Below are positions 32,639 to 62,299 of a DNA stretch of 64,000 bases, one piece after another. Position 1 is the first letter of the stretch; the number at the start of each line of letters is the position of its first letter. This stretch comes from Rubrivivax sp. (lineage in GTDB: Bacteria; Pseudomonadota; Gammaproteobacteria; Burkholderiales; Burkholderiaceae_C): positions 62,001-126,000 of the forward strand of contig SEFA01000014.1 of NCBI GenBank assembly GCA_004210455.1, read 5' to 3'. The notes under the pieces were generated by a model. That model worked only from the letters and a program-made list of their open reading frames with translations. It was not told where the DNA came from and made no database searches. Both the position numbers and the translations under genes were made by a program.

Positions 32639-33412
32639 CTAGGCGAGGGGCCCGGTCAGCGCCTCAGGATGCGGCGAATGGCAGTGGGCGAGGACGATCG
32701 GTCGACTGCGACGACCGAGCAGACGCCGTGGCGGCCGGTGCCCCGTTCCGCTCAATCGCCTCCTCATGCTCGGCATTCGCTCCACGGGGCACCGGCCGCC
32801 ACGGCGTCTGCTCGGCGTGACGTGGCCGAAGGGCGGCTGACGCAGCAGGTAATGCAGCTTGGTCGAGCCGTGCGCCCACAGCGCCTGGCCGTTGGACAGC
32901 AGCATGTTGAACGTGCCGTGGCCGTTGAGTCGCGGCAGCAGCTCGCGCAGCGTGTGGTTCAGTTCCTCGATCGCCGGCATGTCGGCGTGCGCCTTCGCCA
33001 GTTCCTGCATCAGCCAGCAGAAGGCCTGCTCGCTGTCGGTCTGCCCCACCGGCTTGAACGCCGCATGCAGCCGCGGCGAGAAACCCTTCAGGTCGCCGTT
33101 GTGCGCGAACACCCAGTAGCGGCCCCACAGCTCGCGCACGAACGGATGGGTGTTCTCCAGCGAGACCACGCCCTGCGTCGCCTTGCGGATGTGCGCGATG
33201 ACGACGTCGCTGCGGATGGGGTAGGTCTTGACCAGCTCCGCCAGCGGCGACACCCGGGCGCTGTGGTGGTCGACGAAATGCCGCAGCCCGCGGCCCTCGA
33301 AGAACGCGATGCCGAAACCGTCCTTGTGCTCGTGCGCCCGCGTCGCCAGGCCAGCGAAGCTGAACATCACATCGGTCGGTCGGCGGGCGTTCATGCCCAT
33401 CAGCTGGCACAT
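32639..33412 (-). CDS. Class II glutamine amidotransferase, C-terminus replaced by a repeat
   Basis: YafJ-like class II glutamine amidotransferase with the N-terminal nucleophile Cys (MCQLMGMNARRPTDVMFSFAGL) and conserved HKDGFGIAF, HIRKATQG, NTHPF and FAHNGDLKGF blocks. The family-like sequence stops abruptly after LHYLLRQPPFG; the remaining about 60 residues are arginine-rich (TPSRRRGGRCP, RMPSMRRRLSGTGHRPPRRLLG) and come from a palindromic repeat inserted on this strand at 32715-32815. By comparison with E. coli YafJ about 50-55 C-terminal residues are missing, and I do not find them downstream. The product may be inactive or unstable. It is co-directional with the flavoprotein gene upstream. 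Confidence 0.75.
   Translation of the reverse strand: MCQLMGMNARRPTDVMFSFAGLATRAHEHKDGFGIAFFEGRGLRHFVDHHSARVSPLAELVKTYPIRSDVVIAHIRKATQGVVSLENTHPFVRELWGRYWVFAHNGDLKGFSPRLHAAFKPVGQTDSEQAFCWLMQELAKAHADMPAIEELNHTLRELLPRLNGHGTFNMLLSNGQALWAHGSTKLHYLLRQPPFGHVTPSRRRGGRCPVERMPSMRRRLSGTGHRPPRRLLGRRSRPIVLAHCHSPHPEALTGPLA
32715..32815 (-). repeat. Palindromic repeat element, copy A
   Basis: A perfect 31-bp inverted repeat (32715-32745 with 32785-32815) encloses a 39-base centre. On the minus strand the centre matches copy B at 62219-62299 at 37 of 39 positions, and the inner arm bases GGCCGGTGCCCC are shared. The outer 19 bases of each arm are unrelated to those of copy B but remain fully self-complementary. 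It lies inside the reading frame of the amidotransferase gene. Confidence 0.85.
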
Positions 33413-62218: not shown

Positions 62219-62299
62219 GCCGGCGCGGCCGGTGCCCCTTGGAGCGAATGCCGAGCATGCGCAGGCGATTGAGCGGAAAGGGGCACCGGCCGTGCCGGC
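62219..62299 (+). repeat. Palindromic repeat element, copy B
   Basis: Arms 62219-62240 and 62278-62299 pair at 21 of 22 positions, with one G-T. The 39 bases at 62240-62278 match the minus-strand centre of copy A at 37 of 39 positions. Here the element lies between convergent genes, where it can act as a terminator-like hairpin for both. Confidence 0.85.

Follow-up and report, generated by a model that had tools for sequence, protein, structure and literature searches.

The two hairpins of the window

As summarized in Table 1, the window (the whole stretch of 64,000 nucleotides that was analysed) contains two copies of a hairpin repeat, the first of which is read through by the ORF of a class II glutamine amidotransferase. 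The cores of the two copies lie on opposite strands and are identical at 37 of 39 positions. The arms of copy 1 are perfectly complementary over 31 bp, and the sole departure in the 22-bp arms of copy 2 is a G·T wobble on the core strand. Thus, the first-pass annotation was right about the coordinates, arm lengths and core identity, and the mismatch it had noted in copy 2 is this wobble. On either strand, none of the 200 dinucleotide shuffles of a copy folded as well as the copy itself (copy 1, z of −11.3 and −12.4; copy 2, z of −5.2 and −4.0).

Table 1. Positions of the two hairpins and of the overlapping gene in the window
Feature	Position	Strand	Remark
Class II glutamine amidotransferase ORF (GATase_4)	32639..33412	−	Reads through copy 1
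Copy 1, whole	32715-32815		Core on minus strand
Copy 1, 3′ arm in core orientation	32715..32745	−	First arm on the plus strand
Copy 1, conserved 39-nt core	32746..32784	−	GGAGCGAATGCCGAGCATGAGGAGGCGATTGAGCGGA type
Copy 1, 5′ arm in core orientation	32785..32815	−	Outer nine bases are CGAGCAGAC on the minus strand
Copy 2, whole	62219-62299		Core on plus strand
Copy 2, 5′ arm	62219..62240	+
Copy 2, 39-nt core as aligned to copy 1	62240..62278	+	First and last base also counted in the 22-bp arms
Copy 2, 3′ arm	62278..62299	+	One G·T wobble

In the orthologues of copy 1 (L106 and L069), it was found that the amidotransferase gene extends a further 157 nt, to an end inside or next to the 5′ arm of the element. 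In the window, those 157 nt are replaced by nine that are complementary to the element's own 3′ side or flank. Because of this replacement, the stem of copy 1 has grown from 20 to 30 pairs outward of CCCC/GGGG, and the amidotransferase has lost its last 52 residues, the normal C-terminus as in L221/G008. The normal end is intact in all 15 other genomes of the genus, and the GATase_4 match to the window ORF covers only profile positions 1-203 of 272. Comparison with the orthologues indicated that the ten extra pairs are private to this genome and are not a family trait. The outer ten pairs go back to a template-switch-like event that is private to this genome and affected the other arm (5′ in core orientation), and the replacement is what template switching predicts (PMC8794818).

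A dispersed family restricted to one genus

The inner-arm pattern GGTGCCCC N30-50 GGGGCACC hit 10 places in the window's own genome, two of them with more divergent cores, and its reversed control hit none. A sequence search also gave ten places, in eleven matches since copy 1 was hit on both strands, and a covariance model built from 12 copies gave 14 strong copies (E below 1e-7, core strand). Among 40 genomes searched, nine including the own genome have matches, all from the Roseateles/Mitsuaria genus: six with strong matches (G000, G005, G006, G008, G010, and G013), two with shorter relatives (G014 and G015), and one with a single weak match (G004). In a family-wide sample of 299 genomes from 141 genera, searched with stricter filters, only the window's own genome gave matches. 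A search of about 85,000 species genomes with the exact core pattern gave 38 stretches, every one of which is titled Mitsuaria or Roseateles, and viral contigs gave no match. The proposed dispersed multi-copy family is therefore real: there are far more than the two copies first seen, and their arms do show compensatory changes. A search of a literature collection found no paper on this family, which does not prove that none exists.

The further analysis used 73 copies (14 from G000, 16 from G005, 12 from G008, 20 from G013, seven from G006, and four from G010), an incomplete set since G008 has 13 and G013 has 26 strong core-strand matches. By comparison of their flanks, 54 of these copies fall into 16 orthologous site groups, and the other 19 occupy single sites. 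Decayed copies are few: in four genomes, 69 copies reached at least 58 bits, four scored 42-47, and five scored 22-32. One of the four elements at 42-47 bits is a half element (L088, G013:C20:3839-3926), which has the 5′ arm and the core, has lost the 3′ arm, and lies directly upstream of an intact copy.

By the directions of the neighbouring genes, which were assigned with a GC-frame heuristic, the 35 sites comprise 11 ++, nine --, nine +-, four -+, and two inside an ORF, with no orientation bias towards the neighbouring genes. For the polarity count by gene direction given below, L002 was assigned +- manually, since the gene upstream of it encodes a TctC receptor and has the forward direction. 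In the two ORF site groups (L004 and L034), the elements are situated in ABC transporter genes, antisense to the gene, in the stretch that separates two ATP-binding domains. The frame is open in eight of the nine copies there; the frame found for L103 is another one. Intrinsic or bidirectional transcription terminators would also be GC-rich hairpins, often at gene ends, and 29 of the 35 sites are ++, -- or +-. However, in none of the 73 copies does the 10-nt stretch following either arm contain at least six T, termination needs no conserved 38-nt core, and two site groups lie within ORFs that are mostly open. Thus, the intrinsic terminator was rejected, and terminators of either kind are extremely improbable.

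How the elements come and go was assessed at empty sites. In G005, the place of copy 2 is empty, and a stop codon leads straight into the end of the next gene. The place of L072 is empty in G000 and G008, while a G013 element lies between matching flanks. Loss fits these two well-aligned empty sites as well as gain. A joined-flank search revealed no clean insertion with target duplication. GTCCTC occurs on both sides of copy 2 and is absent from the empty site of G005, and no clear target-site duplication, which along with terminal inverted repeats would mark a MITE, was seen at the aligned empty sites. The idea that the arms are derived from the target, as an inverted duplication of each insertion site, was rejected because the arms have a consensus in common and are preserved from one orthologue to another.

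Stem pairing and the polarity of mispairs

The hairpin repeat is about 85-100 nt in length and has a conserved centre of about 38 nt within a 20-bp stem. Counted outward from CCCC/GGGG, the stem has a sharp limit of 20 pairs; position 20 already pairs in only part of the copies, and information outside the stem is mostly below 0.4 bits. In 68 of the 73 copies, the 20 pairs include none beyond Watson-Crick and G·U.

An identical 38-nt core is shared by 18 of the 73 copies across four genomes. L021 (G000:C172:41384-41480) has a core of another type, GAACCCTGAGCGAAGCGAAGACTGTGAG, while its arms and flanks match those of its orthologues L066 and L104. Core identity is 0.816 within a genome and 0.804 between genomes, a difference reached by one of 2000 permutations, whereas arm identity has no excess within a genome over between genomes. 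These results suggest a weak exchange of cores between copies. Strong concerted evolution had been expected and was given up, since the effect on core identity is weak only. A pseudoknot between CCGAGC of the core and a 3′ GCTCGG was also discarded, as the sites do not share a conserved 3′ flank.

The arms pair in spite of sequence change, as the first-pass annotation had proposed from two copies. In 68 aligned copies, 98.6% of the stem cells pair, as against 81.4% in shuffled alignments and at most 52.4% in slid structures. Both sides are changed in 308 cells (81.5 in shuffles) and in 22 of the 29 pairs of this alignment, which was fitted to the covariance model; in an unfitted MAFFT alignment of 12 copies, both-side changes occur in 12 of 29 pairs. 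Pairing is also kept across orthologous sites of up to six species, and 31 of the 68 copies have a G-C to U-A exchange in the inner helix.

Covariation commonly counts as proof that an RNA is functional. Template switching, however, copies one arm onto the other, a mechanism argued for RNA stems in the accessible sections of PMC8794818, so that compensatory change alone is no proof of selection. Could such copying alone keep the palindromes perfect and mimic covariation, with no selection on the fold? Copy 1 is a direct example, and arm-to-arm copying contributes to the complementarity of the arms. The double changes between orthologous sites comprise 30 of the transversion type, which has no wobble intermediate, and 17 of the transition type, while 22 of the 28 states that differ on one side do so by wobble. 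Thus, some two-sided changes probably reflect single-event copying. As a full account, copying is nonetheless improbable: the conserved part includes a core that is no arm, and neutral correction would be expected to spare G·T and A·C equally, whereas 43 of the former kind and none of the latter were seen.

This polarity was found in 1460 stem pairs of the 73 copies, which include 39 G·T, four T·G, no A·C or C·A, and seven other mispairs. Counted once per site and position, there are 35 wobbles and no A·C. The wobble at position 13, the commonest one, may have been inherited from a source copy; without it, 22 wobble events (19 G·T and three T·G) and again no A·C remain. One A·C was found in L095, outside the 20 pairs. 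Since a G·T on the core strand is an A·C on the other strand, the mispair rule tells which strand folds. This rule, which correction by copying alone does not yield, gives good support to selection on the folded core strand. Thus, the earlier claim of selection on structure stands by the polarity of the mispairs, although the covariation it was drawn from is insufficient.

The polarity holds regardless of the direction of the neighbouring genes. The 24 copies that were assigned an antisense orientation relative to their flanking or host gene have 13 G·T, two T·G, no A·C, and one other mispair. The selected form is therefore probably the single strand with the conserved core, as single-stranded DNA or as its own RNA, rather than a read-through mRNA, and an RNA made by read-through of neighbouring genes is disfavoured. 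In G014 and G015, nine distinct hairpins have seven G·T, six T·G, and no A·C; this tally leaves out L042, a wrong-strand reading of an L080 place with one A·C, and the duplicate L041.

In the main set, G·T (with G in the 5′ arm) is far above T·G, whereas the shorter relatives have seven to six. The excess in the main set is explained neither by folding as single-stranded DNA nor by folding as RNA.

Relation to known repeats and a possible working form

In the broad sense, the hairpins are a family of stem-loop repeats (SLS/REP-like), having many dispersed copies, a shared hairpin, and a mainly intergenic location. Are they true REP/REPIN elements mobilised by the RAYT of the genus, as the first-pass annotation had considered? 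RAYT genes (PF01797), for which it had advised a search, exist in all 16 genomes of the genus, nine of which have the hairpin elements. Like REP/REPIN, the elements are short, dispersed, intergenic palindromes of similar size, and their relatives in G014 and G015 are tandem and alternately oriented; complementary stem changes and G·T pairs, as found here, are also reported for REP/REPIN in the accessible text of two papers (PMC3733652 and PMC3116915). Unlike REP/REPIN, they show no linkage to RAYT: in the 20 of 30 RAYT regions examined, no element was found at E below 1 (best E of 1.2). The RAYTs compared are orthologues, mutually 80-100% identical, that are present in genomes without elements too. 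The GTAG tag at the foot of the hairpin is absent from all 73 copies, and CGTC, the other tag of REP/REPIN, or GACG lies within 12 nt in 12 of them, a count made without a chance control. The stem is 20 bp here and mostly 6-13 bp in REP/REPIN. Moreover, conservation lies in the centre here, with outer arms that vary freely, while in REPINs it is the ends that are conserved and the spacer that varies. Thus, membership of the REP/RAYT system was rejected on account of the missing tag, the missing linkage in the 20 regions examined, and the RAYTs without elements, and mobilisation by the genus RAYT is very unlikely.

Rickettsia palindromic elements are palindromes able to sit in frame within protein genes. 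The hairpins, likened to them by description only, differ in that just two of the 35 sites are inside ORFs. They also resemble the repeated stem-loops of Cozzuto et al. 2008, who described families in 40 genomes, two thirds of which share a structure and lie between genes (PMC2267715); this likeness is one of description, limited to the accessible part of that paper, where a strand-polarised wobble such as that found here goes unmentioned. Short dispersed stem-loops are thus a known kind; what is new is the layout of a conserved centre with free arms, together with the polarity of the mispairs.

The best explanation, held with moderate confidence, is that the repeats are genus-restricted dispersed stem-loops that work as a hairpin formed by one strand, most likely single-stranded DNA, read by a trans-acting factor. 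The working form would be the hairpin of the strand carrying the GGAGCGAATKCCGAGC core. A putative trans-acting factor would recognise the core and the stem in a REP-like manner, most likely as single-stranded DNA, and the outer half of the stem would be free in sequence as long as it pairs. Broken stems would be lost, or repaired by copying arm onto arm during replication, and cores would be weakly exchanged between copies. The sites known as attC and the ends of IS200/IS605 are folded DNAs, single-strand-specific, that are recognised by an enzyme, and the fold proposed here might be analogous; within a search confined to PF01797, no link to a cassette, an integrase or TnpA was found. Points against the best explanation are that no protein partner for the hairpins and no clean insertion were found, that orthologous sites of old age retain the structure although mobility by itself would not demand it, and that G·T exceeds T·G.

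Alternatively, each copy may transcribe its own core strand into an RNA hairpin with a functional inner motif. It was in this form that the structured RNA motif of the first-pass annotation was retained, as a possible though less likely rival, after read-through RNA had been disfavoured. Wobbles that are G·U only on one strand, the exchange from G-C to U-A in the inner helix, and the conserved internal sequence with its identical cores are as expected of such an RNA. In contrast, there is no conserved flank for a promoter, the sites show no orientation bias towards neighbouring genes, and a single RNA would not usually have 12-26 copies per genome. No Rfam family reached the gathering score within the window; copy 2 had only sub-threshold matches, mainly to microRNA hairpin models far below their cut-offs. 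To prefer single-stranded DNA, held with moderate confidence, over an RNA that is doubtful is a matter of judgement. With the single-stranded DNA hairpin preferred, I only tentatively suggest a new type of hairpin element, in which a putative factor would read the centre on a stem of arbitrary sequence, on one strand and in any gene direction, while template switching would renew the arms.

The family separates two causes of covariation at orthologous sites, namely arm-to-arm copying (copy 1) and selection (the polarity of mispairs). The polarity test, in which G·T and A·C are counted and split by gene direction, is cheap and applicable to any palindromic repeat, and it asks whether DNA or a read-through RNA is the selected form.

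Two local arrangements were also observed. The shorter related hairpins form tandem arrays in G015 (L079, 681-1583) and G014 (L081, 821-1312), and in L079 their orientation alternates with a period of about 351 nt. In L085 of G013, short tandem repeats with a CACCTCGGTGG-like unit adjoin the element in its upstream flank.
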